DNA of 64,000 nucleotides, taken from the NCBI RefSeq assembly GCF_003234085.1, contig NZ_QKSD01000015.1, positions 31,979-95,978 of the forward strand. The letters are read 5' to 3'. Positions 10,070 through 17,665 of the stretch are shown here, piece after piece. The number at the start of each line of letters is the position of its first letter. Position 1 is the stretch's first letter. The translations under genes and the position numbers were made by a program. Under the pieces are notes generated by a model, which saw nothing but the letters and a program-made list of their open reading frames with translations, did no database searches and was not told the origin of the DNA. This DNA is from Curtobacterium sp. MCPF17_052. GTDB lineage: Bacteria; Actinomycetota; Actinomycetes; Actinomycetales; Microbacteriaceae.

Positions 10070-10075
10070 CACGAT
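10070..10075 (+). promoter_or_regulatory. -10 element of the PrsW gene (possible leaderless start)
   Basis: CACGAT ends 7 bases before ATG 10083. It lacks the leading T of the TANNNT pattern but keeps the spacing seen at neighbouring genes. Confidence 0.35.
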
Positions 10076-10082
10076 GGGGCGC

Positions 10083-11039
10083 ATGACGCTCGAGACCGAT
10101 GTGCACGTCGGCGCACACCCGCACCACCGGCACGGCTGGTGGTGGAAGACCCTGCTCGGCGGGTTCCTGCTCTGGGTGGTGACGATCATCGTCACCATCG
10201 CCACCCAGAACACGAACCTGGTGCCGACGATCATCCTGATCGGCAGCTTCCTGGTGCCGTTCACGGTGGTGCTGTTCGTCATCGAACGGGTCACCGGCAC
10301 GGTCAGCACCATGCAGTTGATCACCGCGTTCTTCGTCGGCGGGGTCCTCGGGGTGCTCGGGGCGTCGCTGCTGGAGTCCGACCTGCGACCGGGTGCCGGG
10401 CTGTACCTGCTCGTCGGCTTCGTCGAGGAACTGGTCAAGGGCGTGCTGCTCGTCGTCGTCGGGTGGCGGGTCCGCCCGAAGACCGCTCGGCAGGGGGCGC
10501 TCCTCGGTGCGACCGTCGGAGCCGGGTTCTCGGCGTTCGAGTCCGCCGGCTACGCCTTCAACGCCGCGATCACCACCCGCGGCATCGACCTGTCGTCCCT
10601 GCTGCAGACCGAGGTCGCCCGCGCCGTGCTGTCCCCGGTCGGCCACGTCCTCTGGACCGCGATCCTCGGCGCCGTCCTGTTCGGGGTGGCGCACGGGCGG
10701 CCGAGGTTCCGATGGGCGTGGTCGGTGCTCGTCGCGTACGTGGTCGTGTCGGTGCTGCACGGGCTGTGGGACTCGAACTCGACGATCTCGACCCTGCTGG
10801 CGTTCGTGTTCACCGGGACGCCGTTCTCGGCGGCGCAGAACGGGTACGTACCGTCCTCGCTCGCCGGCGTCGTGACGACGCTGTACATCGCCGGGCTCGC
10901 CGTCGTGTCCGTCATCGGCGTCGGCGTGCTCGTCGGCGTGCTGCTGCACTACCGGCGGCAGGCGCGGCGCCTCGACGCCCGGCAGCACGCGGAGCTCGGC
11001 GCCTGGGCCGGGTCGCCGCCGCCACACCCGCTCCGCTGA
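10083..11039 (+). CDS. PrsW-family intramembrane metalloprotease
   Basis: 318 residues and about eight to nine membrane helices. PrsW motifs are visible in order: FVEELVKG (Glu pair near 116-117), SAFESAGYAF (about 150), HVLWTA (about 186) and HGLWD (about 225), which supply metal-binding Glu and His. The N-terminus has a His-rich cytosolic stretch (HVGAHPHHRHGWWW). PrsW enzymes cleave membrane proteins such as anti-sigma factors; no anti-sigma factor lies nearby. The AHCY-like gene begins 29 bases downstream with its own -10 element. Confidence 0.88.
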   Translation: MTLETDVHVGAHPHHRHGWWWKTLLGGFLLWVVTIIVTIATQNTNLVPTIILIGSFLVPFTVVLFVIERVTGTVSTMQLITAFFVGGVLGVLGASLLESDLRPGAGLYLLVGFVEELVKGVLLVVVGWRVRPKTARQGALLGATVGAGFSAFESAGYAFNAAITTRGIDLSSLLQTEVARAVLSPVGHVLWTAILGAVLFGVAHGRPRFRWAWSVLVAYVVVSVLHGLWDSNSTISTLLAFVFTGTPFSAAQNGYVPSSLAGVVTTLYIAGLAVVSVIGVGVLVGVLLHYRRQARRLDARQHAELGAWAGSPPPHPLR

Positions 11040-11068: not shown

Positions 11069-12796
11069 ATGCCGCGCGCCGACCCGACAGCCCGCGCCGA
11101 CCCGGCCGTGCTGGCCTGGGCCTCCGCTGCCGTCAGGCACACCGCCCGGGTGACGAACATGCTCCTCGCGGCCCGGCGCTTCCGCATCGTCGGCGGTGAC
11201 CCGCGGGACGCGGCCGTCCTGCACGACCTGCTGACGGGGTTCGGTGCCCGTCCTGCCGACGGCGCGACGGGCGTGGACCAGCTCTGGTGCCTCGGCACCC
11301 CGGAAGAGTCGGTCACGGCCGTCGAGCAGGCCACCGCTGACCGGCCGCGCGGCTCGACGCTGCTCGTCATCGACGCCGGCCGCCACGTACCAGCCGTCGA
11401 CGAGGACGCCTTCGGCCCGACCGCGCTCGCCCGACCCGGCGTGCTCGGCGTGCCGACGACCTCGGACGACGTGTTCCTCGTCTCCACCGGCCGGGACCCC
11501 GAGGACGGCCCCGCCGCCGAGGCCCGCATCCGCTGGGCCCGCCGCTCCATGCCCGTCTCGCGTGCGGTCGCCGACGACCTCCGGCAGGGCGGCCTGCTCC
11601 GCGGCACCCGCATCGGTGTCAGCCTGTTCCTCGAGCCGAAGACCGCGGTGCTCGCCCTGCTCCTGCAGGACGCCGGCGCCGAGGTCGTCGCCTACGCCCA
11701 CGCGGACGAGACCGACGACGCCGTCGCGGACGTCCTCCGCCGCACGGGCATCCCGGTGCACGCGAGCAGCGCGGCGTCCGTGTCGGAGCAGCGGGACCTG
11801 GCGCTCGCGATGCTCGACACCCGCCCGCACGTGCTCCTCGACGACGGGTCGCACGTCATCCGGCTGGTGCACCAGGAACGACCGGACCTGCTGCCGACGA
11901 TGCTCGGGGCCGCCGAGGAGACCACGAGCGGCCTCCGCCCGCTGCGCGTCATGGCGTCACGCGGCCAGCTCGGGATCCCGGTCGTCGCCGTGAACGACGC
12001 CCGCACCAAGACGTTCTTCGACAACCGGTACGGCACCGGGCAGTCGACGGTGTTCGCCGCGCTCGACCTGCTCGACCGCCTCGACACGACGGTGCGGGCG
12101 GTCGTGCCGGTGGGGAGAGGCTCGGCCGTCGTCGCCGGGTACGGTCACGTCGGCGAGGGGGTCGCCCTGGTGCTCCGCGCACTCGGGTTCCGGGTCACCG
12201 TCGCAGACCCCGACCCGGTCCGGGCGTTGCAGGCCCTGTTCGCCGGGTACGCCGTGGCCCCGCTCACCGAGGCCGTGCGCGACGCCGACCTGGTGATGAG
12301 CGCCTCCGGGGTGCCGGACACGATCAGCCTCGCCGTGTTGCGAGCGTGCGCTCCCGGAACGGTCGTCGCGGTCGCCGGCGGGGTGGACCAGGAGGTCGCG
12401 CTCGACGACGCCGTCGCCGCGGGAGCCGTACGGACGCAGATCGGGCGGAAGGTCGAGCGGGTCAGCATGCCGGACGGCCCGCACGTGCTGCTGCTCGACG
12501 GCGGCGGCTGCATCAACATCACCGGTGCCGAGGGCAACCCGATCGAGATCATGGACCTGTCCTTCGCGGCGCAGCTCGGTGCCGTACGGATGCTCGTCGA
12601 ACGCGGGGACGAACTCGAGCGGGCCGTCGTGCCGATCGACCCCGAGGTGGACGCGGTGACCGCCCGCGCGGCGCTCGCCGCGTTCGGGACGGTGGTCGAG
12701 CCTCCCGGCAGTCCGGTCGGCACGACCTGGCCCGCGGCGCAGCCCGTGGACCGTGCGCCGGACGTCTGGACCCGACGGTTCGGGGACCCGGCGTGA
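11069..12796 (+). CDS. S-adenosylhomocysteine hydrolase homologue with altered active site
   Basis: 575 residues, longer than usual because of an extra N-terminal domain (about 1-150). AdoHcyase landmarks follow: FLEPKTAVL, LLDDG, EETTSG (E283/E284), NDARTKTFFDNRYG (K314, D318), the NAD-binding loop GYGHVGEG (357-364) and GAEGNPIEIMDLSFAAQ. The catalytic Lys and acidic residues are kept. All three conserved active-site His of human AHCY (55, 301, 353) appear replaced, by Phe187, Gly438 and Asn490. The C-terminal KPxxYRY tail is missing. The start is coupled by GTGA overlap to a deaminase-like gene. It probably still binds NAD and a nucleoside; it may act on S-inosylhomocysteine or a related nucleoside (inference). 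Confidence 0.8.
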   Translation: MPRADPTARADPAVLAWASAAVRHTARVTNMLLAARRFRIVGGDPRDAAVLHDLLTGFGARPADGATGVDQLWCLGTPEESVTAVEQATADRPRGSTLLVIDAGRHVPAVDEDAFGPTALARPGVLGVPTTSDDVFLVSTGRDPEDGPAAEARIRWARRSMPVSRAVADDLRQGGLLRGTRIGVSLFLEPKTAVLALLLQDAGAEVVAYAHADETDDAVADVLRRTGIPVHASSAASVSEQRDLALAMLDTRPHVLLDDGSHVIRLVHQERPDLLPTMLGAAEETTSGLRPLRVMASRGQLGIPVVAVNDARTKTFFDNRYGTGQSTVFAALDLLDRLDTTVRAVVPVGRGSAVVAGYGHVGEGVALVLRALGFRVTVADPDPVRALQALFAGYAVAPLTEAVRDADLVMSASGVPDTISLAVLRACAPGTVVAVAGGVDQEVALDDAVAAGAVRTQIGRKVERVSMPDGPHVLLLDGGGCINITGAEGNPIEIMDLSFAAQLGAVRMLVERGDELERAVVPIDPEVDAVTARAALAAFGTVVEPPGSPVGTTWPAAQPVDRAPDVWTRRFGDPA

Positions 12797-14184
12797 CCGA
12801 CCAGCGGGTGGGCCCGCCGGTCGTGGCCGACTCGACGACGACCGTGCACTCGGCGCGGATCGTCGTGCCGATGACCGCACCGCCGATCGCCGACGGGGCC
12901 GTGGCGGTCCGTGACGGCCGGATCCTGCACGTCGGCGAACGCTCCTGGGTGGTGGACCAGCTCGACGGCACCCCGTTCACCGAGCGGCGGTGGCGTGGGG
13001 CGCTGCTGCCCGGACTCGTCAACGCGCACTCGCACCTGCAGTACACCGGCATGGCCAGTGTCGGGCGAGGCCAGTACGACGGGTTCGAGGACTGGGCGTC
13101 CGCGTTCAACACCGTCTACGCCGAGCCGCACGACTGGCGCGCCGAAGCCGCGGCCGGTGCCGTGCAGTCCATCGCCGCCGGTGTGACGAGCATCGCCGAC
13201 GTCGTCACCGACCTCGAAGCGGCGAGCGCCCTCCAGGACGCCGGCCTCGGCGGCATCGCCTACTGGGAGGTGATGGACTGGGAGAACGCGGCCTGGCAGC
13301 AGCACGGCCGCGACCAGGTGCTCGGCGAACTCGCACGCATGCCGGCCACCCCCGGCGCCGGGCTGTCCCCGCACGCGCCCTACTCGCTCGACGTGGCGCC
13401 GCTCCTGGAGCTGCCCGACATCGTCCGGCAGCGGGGACTCCGCCTGCACCTGCACCTCGGTGAAGCAGCGTTCGAGGGGGAGCGTGCCGCCGTCGAGCCG
13501 GTCCCCGGGTTCGAGGGCGTCGTCGGCGTCGGCCACGGCGCGGACTGGCACCTGGCGAACGTGCCGTCCTTCCGGGCGATGCGGGCCCTCGGGTTCGGGG
13601 CGAGTGCGACCTCGTTCGTCGACCGGCTCGGCGTGCTCGGCCCCGACTGCCACATCGCGCACGGCGTCTACATGACCGCGGTCGACCGGGCGCTGCTCCG
13701 GGCCCGCGGCACCGCGGTCGCGCTCTGCCCACGGTCGAACGCCGTCATCGGGCTCGATCCGCCGCCCGTCGCGGACTACCTGCGGGAGGGCAGCCCGATC
13801 GCCGTCGGTACCGACTCCCTGTCGTCGTCGCCGTCCCTCGACCCGATGGCAGACGTCACCGCCCTGCACCGCATCGCCCGCGCCCAGGGGTACTCCGGGC
13901 GGGACCTGCACGAGCGACTGCTCGCGGCGGCGACGCTCGGCGGGGCGCACGCGATGGGTCTGGCCGTCGGACCCGACCGGATCGGGCACCTGGCCGTCGG
14001 TGCCCGTGCCGACCTGGCCGTGTTCGACGTCGACTCGCGCACGGTGCCCGACGCGCTCGCCGAACTCGTCGAGGACGGGGCCGGTCGCGCCGCCGCCACC
14101 GTCATCCGCGGGGTCGTCCGGACAGCCGACTCTGCCCGGGTCGCCCCGGGCCCCTCCACCACCCCCAGCAAGGAGTCCCGATGA
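12793..14184 (+). CDS. Amidohydrolase, SAH/MTA deaminase-like
   Basis: 463 residues of the ATZ/TRZ (cytosine deaminase-like) amidohydrolase group. Metal site: NAHSH (H79, H81), LHLHLGE (H221), HIAHG (H290) and GTDSLSS (D341), all present. SPHAPYS (H194) matches the substrate-binding His of S-adenosylhomocysteine/methylthioadenosine deaminases. C-terminal segment IGHLAVGARADLAVFDVD is typical. GTG start overlaps the stop of the AHCY-like gene, and its stop overlaps the cupin gene. Coupling to an AHCY homologue supports a purine-nucleoside thioether substrate, though guanine or chloro-triazine-type substrates cannot be excluded. Confidence 0.82.
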   Translation: MTDQRVGPPVVADSTTTVHSARIVVPMTAPPIADGAVAVRDGRILHVGERSWVVDQLDGTPFTERRWRGALLPGLVNAHSHLQYTGMASVGRGQYDGFEDWASAFNTVYAEPHDWRAEAAAGAVQSIAAGVTSIADVVTDLEAASALQDAGLGGIAYWEVMDWENAAWQQHGRDQVLGELARMPATPGAGLSPHAPYSLDVAPLLELPDIVRQRGLRLHLHLGEAAFEGERAAVEPVPGFEGVVGVGHGADWHLANVPSFRAMRALGFGASATSFVDRLGVLGPDCHIAHGVYMTAVDRALLRARGTAVALCPRSNAVIGLDPPPVADYLREGSPIAVGTDSLSSSPSLDPMADVTALHRIARAQGYSGRDLHERLLAAATLGGAHAMGLAVGPDRIGHLAVGARADLAVFDVDSRTVPDALAELVEDGAGRAAATVIRGVVRTADSARVAPGPSTTPSKESR

Positions 14185-14678
14185 CCGACACCGCACCCCG
14201 CCCCGGCATGGTCGCCCGCCGCACCGTCTCGGGGGAGCTCATCGAGTGGCTCGACGTCCCGCAGCGGGCGCGAGCGCTCGGCATGGAGCCGCACCCCGAG
14301 GGCGGCTGGTACGTCCGGACGTGGACCTCGCCCGCGACCGTGCAGACCGCGGCGGGGGAGCGACCCGCGGCGACGCTCATCCACTTCCTCCTGCCCCCGG
14401 GCGAGGCCTCTGCCTGGCACCGGGTCACGAGCGACGAGATCTGGATGTGGCACGGGCCGGACTCGGTCGAGCTCGAACTCGGCGGGTCGGGGGACCAGCC
14501 GGAGCCGGGCGCACGGATCACCCTCGGGCCGGATGCCGGGCGCGACCGGGTGAACGACGCACAGGCGTTCGTCCGCGGCGGTGTCTGGCAGCGGACGATC
14601 CCGCACGAGGGCGAGGTGCTCCTCAGCTGCCTGGTGTCGCCCGGTTTCTCGTTCGAGGACTTCACCCTCGCCGACTGA
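14181..14678 (+). CDS. DUF985 cupin protein
   Basis: 165 residues. Cupin_5/DUF985 hallmarks are HPEGGWYVRTW (about residue 37), LIHFLLPPGEASAWHRVTSDEIWMWHGP and the closing LVSPGFSFEDFTLAD. Members are small beta-barrel proteins, some related to sugar or nucleotide isomerases; activity here is unknown. ATG 14181 overlaps the amidohydrolase stop and has AAGGAG at 14170-14175. As third gene of a coupled unit it may act on the product of the pathway. Confidence 0.88.
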   Translation: MTDTAPRPGMVARRTVSGELIEWLDVPQRARALGMEPHPEGGWYVRTWTSPATVQTAAGERPAATLIHFLLPPGEASAWHRVTSDEIWMWHGPDSVELELGGSGDQPEPGARITLGPDAGRDRVNDAQAFVRGGVWQRTIPHEGEVLLSCLVSPGFSFEDFTLAD

Positions 14679-14900: not shown

Positions 14901-15108
14901 GCGTCGTGGACACCGCGTGTCCATTCCGTTCCTGCTCCGGCTGCCGGTCGCGATCCCGGTCAGTGCGTCGTTGGTGGCTTGTAGTGTGTTCGCCATGAAC
15001 GTGCCGACGACATCCGGTGGCTGGGTGACCGGGGTGTCCGCCGGTGTGGCGCTGTTCCTGGCCAACATCTCCACGGGTGCTGCCATCAACGCGCGGCGGC
15101 GCCGCTGA
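14893..15108 (+). CDS. Small membrane protein of unknown function
   Basis: 71 residues from GTG 14893; GTG 14917 is an alternative start. Two predicted membrane helices (FLLRLPVAIPVSASLVACSV and GWVTGVSAGVALFLANIST) are followed by a basic tail NARRRR, so both ends should face the cytoplasm. No family recognised and no clear ribosome binding site. It sits alone upstream of the amino acid transporter operon. Confidence 0.45.
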   Translation: MSERRGHRVSIPFLLRLPVAIPVSASLVACSVFAMNVPTTSGGWVTGVSAGVALFLANISTGAAINARRRR

Positions 15109-15214: not shown

Positions 15215-16036
15215 GTGACCCGACCCCTCCGCCTGACCATCGCCCTCGCCACGGCCCTCGTCGCCGCGACCGCCCTCGCCGGCTGCTCGTCCGGCGGTGG
15301 TGACAACGCTGCCGGCACCGTCACCGACGGCAAGCTCACGATCGCCACCGGCCAGCCCGCGTACTCGCCCTGGGTCGAGGACGACGAGCCGCAGTCCGGC
15401 AAGGGCTTCGAGGCCGCCCTGGCGTACGCCGTCGCGAAGGAGATGGGCTACAGCAAGGGCGACGTGGTCTGGAAGCGCAGCACCTTCGACAGCGCCATCG
15501 CACCGGGTGCGAAGGACTGGGACCTCAACCTGCAGCAGTTCTCGATCGACGCAAAGCGCAAGAAGGCCGTCGACATGTCCTCCGCGTACTACACGACCAC
15601 GCAGGCGGTCGTGACGAAGAAGTCGTCCGCCGCCGCCGGGGACACCACCGTCGCCGCCCTGAAGAAGGACACCATCGGCGTGGCCGCCGGGTCGACGAGC
15701 ATCCAGAGCGTCAAGGACGTCCTCGGCGTGACGCCGCAGGTCTTCAACTCCAACGACGACGCCGTCCTGGCGCTCAAGTCCGGTCAGATCGACGCCATCG
15801 TCACCGACCTGCCGACGGCCTTCTACATCTCGGCCTCGCAGGTCGACGGCGGCACCGTGTCGGCGCAGTTCCCCGCCGACGGCGAGGGCGACCAGTTCGG
15901 CATCGTGCTGCCGAAGGGCTCGAAGCTCACCAGCAAGGTCGACGAGGCGCTCGACTCGCTCGACGACGCCGGCACGCTGCAGGACCTGCAGACCAAGTGG
16001 CTGTCCTCCGAGACGAACACCCCGGTCCTGAAGTGA
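15215..16036 (+). CDS. Polar amino acid ABC transporter, substrate-binding lipoprotein
   Basis: 273 residues. Lipoprotein signal with lipobox LAGC (Cys24), then the SBP family 3 fold: KLTIATGQPAYSPWVEDDEPQSG, FDSAIAPGAKDWDLNLQQFSID, ALKKDTIGVAAGSTS and the closing FGIVLPKGSKLTSKVDEALDSL. It captures an amino acid or related polar solute outside the membrane. GTG 15215 is used. A TACACT -10-like element lies at 15171-15176. Followed within 8 bases by the permease gene. Confidence 0.9.
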   Translation: MTRPLRLTIALATALVAATALAGCSSGGGDNAAGTVTDGKLTIATGQPAYSPWVEDDEPQSGKGFEAALAYAVAKEMGYSKGDVVWKRSTFDSAIAPGAKDWDLNLQQFSIDAKRKKAVDMSSAYYTTTQAVVTKKSSAAAGDTTVAALKKDTIGVAAGSTSIQSVKDVLGVTPQVFNSNDDAVLALKSGQIDAIVTDLPTAFYISASQVDGGTVSAQFPADGEGDQFGIVLPKGSKLTSKVDEALDSLDDAGTLQDLQTKWLSSETNTPVLK

Positions 16037-16043
16037 CGCGGGC

Positions 16044-16922
16044 ATGACGTCCCCCGCGGGCGCCGGCACGCCGCTGGTCTCGCCGGCGCCGAGCCAGGTC
16101 GAGCGCGAACGGCAGCTCTACCGTCGGCAGCGTGGTCGCCGATCGGTCACCGTCTCCGTCGTCTCGACGCTGGTCGTCGTCGCGCTGGTCTGGTTCGGCG
16201 TCGTCAACACCCCCGGGTGGGCGGCGGTGCAGCAGTCCTTCTTCGACCCGCAGGTGGCGTGGGAGACCCTGCCGGACGTCCTGCTCGGGCTCTGGCTGAA
16301 CGTCCGGATCCTGTTCTTCGCGAGCATCGGCGTCGCCGTCCTCGGCACCCTGCTCGCGGTCGTCCGTGGTCTGCGGAACCCGGTGTTCTTCCCGCTGCGG
16401 ATGCTCGCCACCGGCTACACGGACCTGTTCCGCGGACTGCCGCTCATCATCGTGCTCTACCTGGTCGGCTTCGGCCTGCCCGGGCTCGGGGTCTTCCCGC
16501 GCCTGGCGCCGGAGTTCTGGGGCACGATCGCGATCGTGCTGACCTACTCGTCGTACGTCGCCGAGGTGCTCCGTGCCGGCATGGAGGCGGTGCACCCGTC
16601 CCAGCGCCTGGCCGCCCGGTCGCTCGGCCTGTCCCACGCCCAGACGCTGCGGTTGGTCGTGCTGCCGCAGGCGATCCGCAAGGTCACGCCCGCGCTGATG
16701 AACGACTTCGTGTCGATGCAGAAGGACGTCGGGCTCGTCTCCATCCTCGGTGCCGTGGACGCGGTCCGCAGCGCGCAGATCGCCCAGGCGGAGCAGACGA
16801 ACTTCACGCCCTACCTGGTCGCCGGCCTGCTCTTCGTCCTCATCAGCCTGCCGCTCATCCGGGTCACCGACGCGATCGCCCGGAAGCAGCAGCAGCGCGA
16901 ACAGATCGGAGGCGCGGTGTGA
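16044..16922 (+). CDS. Polar amino acid ABC transporter permease
   Basis: 292 residues, an N-terminal cytosolic tail of about 35 residues and roughly five or six membrane helices. The coupling-helix region EAVHPSQRLAARSLGLSHAQTLRLVVLPQAIR is the EAA loop of HisM/GlnP-type permeases. The only permease in the operon, so it presumably forms a homodimer with the GlnQ-type ATPase. The stop overlaps the GTG of the ATPase gene. Confidence 0.92.
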   Translation: MTSPAGAGTPLVSPAPSQVERERQLYRRQRGRRSVTVSVVSTLVVVALVWFGVVNTPGWAAVQQSFFDPQVAWETLPDVLLGLWLNVRILFFASIGVAVLGTLLAVVRGLRNPVFFPLRMLATGYTDLFRGLPLIIVLYLVGFGLPGLGVFPRLAPEFWGTIAIVLTYSSYVAEVLRAGMEAVHPSQRLAARSLGLSHAQTLRLVVLPQAIRKVTPALMNDFVSMQKDVGLVSILGAVDAVRSAQIAQAEQTNFTPYLVAGLLFVLISLPLIRVTDAIARKQQQREQIGGAV

Positions 16923-17665
16923 CCGACGAGACCGCTCCCGTCCTCGAACTGCGGGGCCTCCGCAAGTCCTTCGGCGACCAGGAGGTCCTGCGCGGCATCG
17001 ACCTGGCCGTGCACCGCCACGAGGTCATCTGCGTCATCGGGGCATCAGGCTCGGGCAAGTCGACGCTGCTGAAGACCGTGAACCTGCTCGAGGGGATCGA
17101 CGACGGCCAGGTGCTGCTGCAGGGCGAGGACGTCTCCGACCCCCGCGTCGACGTGGACGCCACACGTGCCCGGATCGGCGTCGTCTTCCAGCAGTTCAAC
17201 CTGTTCCCGCACATGAGCGTCCTCGACAACGTGACCCTGGCCTCGCGGAAGGTGCACCGGGCCTCCCGTCCGGAGGCCGAGGCGAACGCGCGCCGCCTGC
17301 TCGACCGGATCGGACTCGGTGACTTCGCCGGTGCGTTCCCCGACCGGTTGTCCGGCGGCCAGCAGCAGCGCGTGGCGATCGTCCGCGCCATCGCGTCGGA
17401 CCCGGAGCTGCTCCTGCTCGACGAGGTCACGAGTGCGCTCGACCCGCAGCTCGTGGGCGAGGTGCTCGACCTCGTCACCGAACTCAAACAGCAGGGCTCG
17501 ACGATCCTCATGACGACGCACGAGATGCACTTCGCCCGGGACGTCGCCGACCGGATCGTGTTCCTGCACCGTGGCGAGGTCGTCGAGCAGGGCGCTCCCG
17601 CGGCGGTCCTCGACGACCCGCAGCACCCGGCGCTCCGCACGTTCCTGGCGCGGGTCCGGGCGTAG
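16919..17665 (+). CDS. Polar amino acid ABC transporter ATPase (GlnQ type)
   Basis: 248 residues with Walker A GASGSGKST, Q-loop VVFQQFNLFPHMSVLDNV, signature LSGGQQQRVAI, Walker B LLLLDEVTSALDP and H-loop TTHEMHFA, all as in GlnQ/HisP. GTG start in the overlap with the permease stop. It energises the transporter. The final gene of the operon, facing the convergent quinone oxidoreductase gene across a hairpin that includes both stop codons. Confidence 0.93.
   Translation: MTDETAPVLELRGLRKSFGDQEVLRGIDLAVHRHEVICVIGASGSGKSTLLKTVNLLEGIDDGQVLLQGEDVSDPRVDVDATRARIGVVFQQFNLFPHMSVLDNVTLASRKVHRASRPEAEANARRLLDRIGLGDFAGAFPDRLSGGQQQRVAIVRAIASDPELLLLDEVTSALDPQLVGEVLDLVTELKQQGSTILMTTHEMHFARDVADRIVFLHRGEVVEQGAPAAVLDDPQHPALRTFLARVRA

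Follow-up and report, generated by a model that had tools for sequence, protein, structure and literature searches.

A 64,000-nucleotide stretch of the Curtobacterium sp. MCPF17_052 genome (contig NZ_QKSD01000015.1, positions 31,979 to 95,978; hereafter the window) carries what gene order and conservation identify as a six-gene operon. The genes encode a divergent homologue of adenosylhomocysteinase (AHCY), termed AHCYL here, a deaminase of the amidohydrolase superfamily, a DUF985 cupin and the three components of an amino-acid-type ABC importer. With a probability of about 0.5, this operon imports an α-amino acid thioether that bears adenosine, deaminates its adenine to hypoxanthine and cleaves the resulting inosyl compound at the 5′ position. 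The substrate is likely S-adenosylhomocysteine (SAH) or a close relative, and our confidence in SAH itself and in the end product is lower than in the substrate class and the order of the steps.

Extent and conservation of the operon

The first-pass annotation of the window had described AHCYL, the deaminase and the cupin as three overlapping genes with a common promoter, which might recycle SAH by deaminating it first. The gene coordinates confirm the start/stop overlaps, with GTGA at the AHCYL/deaminase junction and ATGA at the deaminase/cupin junction. However, the unit does not end at the cupin (position 14678). The genes for the substrate-binding protein (SBP), the permease and the ATPase (15215–17665) follow on the same strand and also belong to the operon, which is thus larger than earlier described. 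The common promoter was not recovered, as a scan of a kind that suits actinobacteria poorly found no sigma-70-type site, and the stop codon of the preceding gene lies 29 bases 5′ of AHCYL. This preceding gene (10074–11039) encodes a hydrophobic product and may be read together with the operon. A small open reading frame of 37 residues (14995–15108), hydrophobic with a basic tail, lies between the cupin and SBP genes.

A contig scan across GTDB species confirmed 386 AHCYL relatives, of which the 80 best-scoring named loci, not a random draw, were compared. They belong mostly to Demequina and Microbacterium, and also to Agromyces, Frigoribacterium, Salinibacterium, Leifsonia, Frondihabitans and Curtobacterium. 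At all 80 loci, the deaminase starts on the same strand between 30 bases before and 81 bases after the AHCYL stop, an adjacency that rules out chance neighbours. The complete six-gene set is present in 75 loci, the cupin in 77 and the SBP in 79; three of the incomplete loci are short stretches that end early (L195, L231 and L235), while L197 and L200 have no cupin match. The importer is divergent in L255 and L256. In the five genomes G437, G497, G547, G591 and G870, a single open frame contains both AHCYL and the deaminase. A survey of 119 loci, picked for AHCYL or the deaminase, covers 35 genus labels, some of which may name one genus; the six module families span 21–32 of these labels, and the next-best family spans 5.

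The closest AHCYL matches are from Curtobacterium, with identities of up to 97%, and 58 of the 60 genomes searched from the window's genus have AHCYL (E 1e-60; no match in G335 and G349). A second copy, split and containing a stop, was observed in a genome of the genus (G338:C1:3940763-3942437). Among 299 genomes of the family, the deaminase (E 1e-80) and AHCYL (>220 bits) each occur in 48 and both occur in 47, that is, in 47 of the 49 genomes holding either. The two exceptions are G445, with the deaminase only, and G378, with only a decayed AHCYL; the latter copy (L125, 6690–8408, minus strand) has decayed motifs and no adjoining deaminase match. The deaminase is present in 34 of 297 genomes at the order level (E 1e-60) and in three of 296 at the phylum level (E 1e-50), namely the window's own genome, G247 and G137 (32% identity). 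The expectation that the trio is conserved together is therefore borne out by co-occurrence, adjacency and the completeness of the gene set. On the AT-rich loci L125, L129, L131 and L132 the gene caller fails, and tblastn was used instead. Among the papers listed by literature searches, which cover few subscription journals, none is seen from its listing to describe this operon.

In six genomes, AHCYL and the deaminase are separated by about 1.7–3.9 kb. The intervening genes were rejected as pathway components because they differ among the genomes: they encode DUF222 proteins (two genomes of one genus), a major facilitator superfamily transporter with a carboxylesterase, an energy-coupling factor (ECF) importer or a sugar-type importer; two open reading frames in L121 were not searched.

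AHCYL retains the oxidation residues of AHCY and lacks its catalytic histidine

AHCYL matches the AdoHcyase_NAD family (90.8 bits), and the AHCY fold is present over the substrate, cofactor and dimerisation domains. Its NCBIfam scores are 337.8 for NF004005 (cut-off 275) and 290.3 for the ahcY model TIGR00936 (cut-off 497.6), and it falls below three other cut-offs. As first annotated, Lys314 and Asp318 are kept, whereas the equivalents of human His55, His301 and His353 are replaced by Phe187, Gly438 and Asn490. The 3′-oxidation and C4′-proton residues (Glu156, Thr157, Lys186, Asp190, Asn191, for which we assume a catalytic role, and Asp131) are kept in all 156 distinct AHCYL sequences; the decayed relative in L125 lacks three of them. 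Position 439, equivalent to Phe302, is Phe in none of the 156. Among the 147 AHCY homologues that adjoin a deaminase, the E-x-K nucleobase motif is invariant, position 187 is never His, and position 438 is Gly in 146 and Met in one. The HxExK motif of S-inosylhomocysteine (SIH) hydrolase is accordingly present only in its E-x-K part. The 156 were grouped by positions 187, 189, 191 and 490, which makes their count circular at these four, while the 147 were chosen by deaminase adjacency and are free of this circularity; sequences were counted as distinct after removal of identical cores, so that a gene with truncated copies may have been counted twice. On their sequences, the AHCYL proteins are a separate clade of AHCY homologues; the AHCY tree omits L125, all but four Curtobacterium-type rows and cores shorter than 300 residues.

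His55 is the water-activating residue in AHCY. With this position not His, AHCYL is, as far as its residues indicate, devoid of any known means of adding water at C5′. Compared with AHCY, AHCYL keeps the fold, the NAD site, the 3′-oxidation residues and Asp131, but it lacks His55, His301 and Phe302, carries E-x-K in place of T-x-Q/E, has an N-terminal domain in most members and resides in a different operon. The loss of His353 alone does not imply a loss of catalysis, since the His353 of mouse S-adenosylhomocysteine hydrolase (SAHH) touches the base through its main chain, according to the accessible portion of PMC4647836. The E-x-K motif goes with a preference for SIH in the available part of PMC10978960. 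Because E-x-K is kept in 147 of 147 homologues, a deaminated substrate would suit AHCYL, which supports the proposed deaminate-first order.

Animal AHCY-like regulatory proteins offer a model in which AHCYL would be a non-catalytic partner, leaving the deaminase as the sole enzyme of an operon for salvaging nitrogen or purine from a nucleoside that the cell takes up. The catalytic position that is never His fits this model, as does the fact that two genomes carry AHCYL in tandem with an intact enzyme of the SIH type. However, all 156 sequences keep the six positions for oxidation and proton transfer, including those from genomes of 1.4–1.9 Mb (G359, G440 and G500), a constancy that the drift of a dead enzyme would not leave, and we consider the model very improbable.

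The N-terminal domain of AHCYL

The extra N-terminal domain seen in the first-pass annotation is confirmed, with alternating strands and helices modelled over residues 12–139, and is identified here, through an intermediate sequence, as a worn duplicate of AHCY's own NAD-binding cofactor domain. Direct comparison of the two domains is insufficient for this identification (not significant, probability 4.9). The bridge is provided by genus g243, in which the domain is a free-standing gene of 224 residues located 5′ of AHCYL (L119:6271-6942; relatives in L102 and L103). In hhalign, its product aligns with the N-terminus of the window's AHCYL (P0002) at a probability of 95.9 (E 6.3e-9); for the AHCY NAD domain the probability is 90.6 (E 1.3e-6). 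An NCBIfam AHCY model also recognizes it (E 1.4e-7). In G247 and G422, the AHCYL frame is short, at 403 and 411 codons, respectively, and leaves no space for the domain.

The deaminase, the importer and the cupin

The deaminase matches Amidohydro_1 (114.2 bits), and its fold is closest to deaminases of 5′-modified adenosines. His79, His81, His221, Glu224, His290 and Asp341, which we take to be the metal site, are each kept in 155 or 156 of 156 sequences and are invariant in alignment A3. The full site first annotated is thus present and agrees with the mononuclear site of amidohydrolase deaminases, but the placement among SAH and 5′-methylthioadenosine (MTA) deaminases by the motif SPHAPYS does not hold, as no curated NCBIfam deaminase cut-off is reached (107.6 vs 522 bits and 33.4 vs 779). 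The enzyme differs from bacterial MTA/SAH/adenosine deaminases (4gbd of P. aeruginosa, 4f0r of Chromobacterium and TM0936), to which it is only 22–24% identical over the aligned part, in these sub-threshold scores and in its tie to AHCYL.

The SBP belongs to Pfam family 3 of polar amino acid binders (75.2 vs 26.4 bits) and is closest to glutamine and arginine binders. It shares the family and the Arg and Asp ligand positions with polar-amino-acid ABC importers, but it remains under every NCBIfam cut-off listed. Arg115 and Asp198 align with an Arg and an Asp of AncQR and ArtJ, presumably as ligands; all 118 distinct SBPs from the module loci keep Arg115, and 113 of them keep Asp198. The ligand therefore very likely carries an α-amino acid group, judging by these positions. 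Taken together with the deaminase and the E-x-K motif, they point to an adenosyl amino acid, with SAH as the first candidate. Other adenosyl metabolites, such as aminofutalosine, 5′-deoxyadenosine, MTA or a nucleoside antibiotic, are improbable substrates, since the amino-acid ligand positions of the SBP are nearly invariant, and MTA and 5′-deoxyadenosine have no α-amino acid.

The cupin matches Cupin_5/DUF985 (128.5 bits; gathering score 25), and its sequence (P0001) also matches that of 3loi/3lzz (E 7.3e-11). The DUF985 protein 3LZZ is listed with bound GDP in the accessible section of PMC11594714, a likeness that gives a faint hint that these cupins may hold a 6-oxopurine.

SAH routes in host genomes and the methanogen precedent

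Recycling of the cell's own SAH, as first proposed, is not supported. The suggested check for canonical ahcY or mtn/luxS found, in the window's genome, a canonical AHCY (G000:C9:44905-46362, 465 bits) and an MTA/SAH nucleosidase (G000:C28:141068-141733, 117.7 bits). In 27 hand-chosen host genomes, canonical AHCY (>400 bits) occurs in 10 and LuxS in 16, with both in G445 and neither in G359 and G550. Because 25 of the 27 carry AHCY or LuxS, the module fills no gap in most of these hosts, and it is unlikely, on this gene content, to serve as housekeeping SAH recycling. The nucleosidase exceeds its cut-off in 4 of 10 genomes, including the window's; neither G359 nor G550, where the module might fill a gap in the SAH route, shows a match. 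The trio as the sole SAH route was rejected in view of the AHCY, LuxS and nucleosidase genes of the hosts. In 27 loci scanned for a riboswitch that could identify the substrate, none of the SAM/SAH type reached the gathering score; only tRNAs and one fluoride riboswitch did. A gene resembling MTA/SAH nucleosidase lies convergent between the cupin and SBP genes at two loci of family label f72 (L166 11353–12216, minus strand; L170 6993–7919, plus strand); the remaining fetched stretches yielded no such gene.

The precedent cited in the first-pass annotation, DadD and SIH hydrolase of Methanocaldococcus jannaschii (MJ1541/MJ1388), is apt in that it pairs a deaminase of the same superfamily with an AHCY relative carrying the E-x-K hypoxanthine motif. 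The methanogen enzyme has HxExK with the catalytic His and a gate (PMC10978960, available part), whereas AHCYL has lost both and gained a second Rossmann domain; the same part of that source mentions no importer or cupin, both of which are present in the window operon. A bacterial version of the methanogen route, in which the deaminase would turn the cell's own SAH into SIH for ordinary hydrolysis by AHCYL to inosine and homocysteine, is doubtful. It is at odds with the loss of the His55, His301 and Phe302 equivalents, with the conserved importer and with the other SAH route in 25 of the 27 chosen genomes. Moreover, in G247 and G422 an intact HxExK enzyme precedes AHCYL. These genomes thus do not require AHCYL for plain SIH, and it is unlikely, from this arrangement, to act in them as a plain SIH hydrolase. 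In G247 the deaminase comes immediately after AHCYL, and in G422 genes of a sugar-type importer separate the two.

A second lineage and accessory genes

Five AHCY homologues from five genomes of family label f18 have Pro or Ala at position 55, Gly at 301 and Val at 302, and keep His353. Four of the five are included in the tree, where they cluster with HxExK enzymes, apart from AHCYL, although the support is not strong (85/64). Genes for the ECF ATPase and T components adjoin these homologues at four of the five fetched loci, the exception being L144; the S component, tested in L142 only, scored under the cut-off. An ECF trio also lies inside the AHCYL operon itself in one Microbacteriaceae genus (L119). 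The His55, His301 and Phe302 equivalents thus seem, from these sequences, to have been lost twice, each time beside an importer.

Some FMN monooxygenases take part in sulfur metabolism. A gene for an FMN monooxygenase adjoins the deaminase in G445 (NtaA/DmoA family; no AHCYL in this genome) and in G834 (77% identical match), and a relative lies 5′ on the opposite strand in 8 of the 80 named loci. The product is perhaps an alternative C–S cleaving partner.

Table 1. Positions of the operon genes, of AHCYL features and of related loci in other genomes
Feature	Position	Strand	Remarks
AHCYL (divergent AHCY homologue)	11069..12796	+	ATG start, 575 aa
Deaminase, amidohydrolase superfamily	12793..14184	+	GTG start, 463 aa; metal-site residues kept
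Cupin_5 (DUF985) protein	14181..14678	+	ATG start, 165 aa
Family-3 (polar amino acid) substrate-binding lipoprotein (SBP)	15215..16036	+	
Amino-acid-type ABC permease	16044..16922	+	
Amino-acid-type ABC ATPase	16919..17665	+	
AHCYL N-terminal domain, about residues 1–145	11069..11503	+	predicted degenerate duplicate of the AHCY NAD-binding Rossmann domain
AHCYL nucleobase motif F-L-E-P-K, residues 187–191	11627..11641	+	E-x-K kept; His55 position is Phe
f18 AHCY homologue with ECF genes	L141 1039-5674; L142 9657-14220; L143 9218-13812; L146 8446-13057		
FMN monooxygenase gene beside deaminase	L136 5872-7266; L169 7383-8720		

Proposed pathway

In the proposed pathway, the ABC importer would take in the amino-acid nucleoside through its α-carboxylate and α-amine, and the metal-dependent deaminase would convert it to the inosyl form. 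AHCYL, with bound NAD+, would then oxidize the 3′-hydroxyl group, Asp258 (the equivalent of Asp131) would take the 4′ proton, and the 5′ thiol amino acid would be expelled. The end product would be inosine if water is added by other means and a 4′,5′-didehydro product if not; it is less sure because the water-activating His55 and the His301–Phe302 gate are lost. The final cutting step likely uses new chemistry, as these replacements suggest. The cupin would probably act on the sugar or nucleoside that results, which is the weakest step of the scheme.

A narrower reading, which we regard as unlikely, is that AHCYL is an NAD-dependent lyase for inosyl thioethers or sulfoniums, for example deaminated S-adenosylmethionine, and stops after the first half of AHCY catalysis. 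C3′ would be oxidized, the C4′ proton removed and the thiol or thioether amino acid expelled without water, giving a 4′,5′-didehydro nucleoside for the DUF985 cupin to process. A sulfonium substrate would account for the missing histidines, since no acid is required to release a neutral leaving group and cationic side chains close to the sulfur would be disfavoured. The ECF-linked lineage, with its identical loss, would then mark a second origin.

Significance

If the proposed pathway of import, deamination and 5′ cleavage is correct, many actinobacteria carry a dedicated system for taking up and dismantling S-adenosyl amino acids, which would be a hardly considered source of sulfur, nitrogen and purine. 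DUF985 cupins would gain a pathway, and many ‘adenosylhomocysteinase’ names would be corrected on proteins without the catalytic histidine. Two Streptomyces SAHHs make a little SIH and do not cleave it, and other enzymes are suggested for this role in the accessible text of PMC10978960; the operon would bear on this bacterial use of SIH. The AHCY variant would also offer a natural setting in which to ask whether an AHCY enzyme can carry out elimination separately from hydration.

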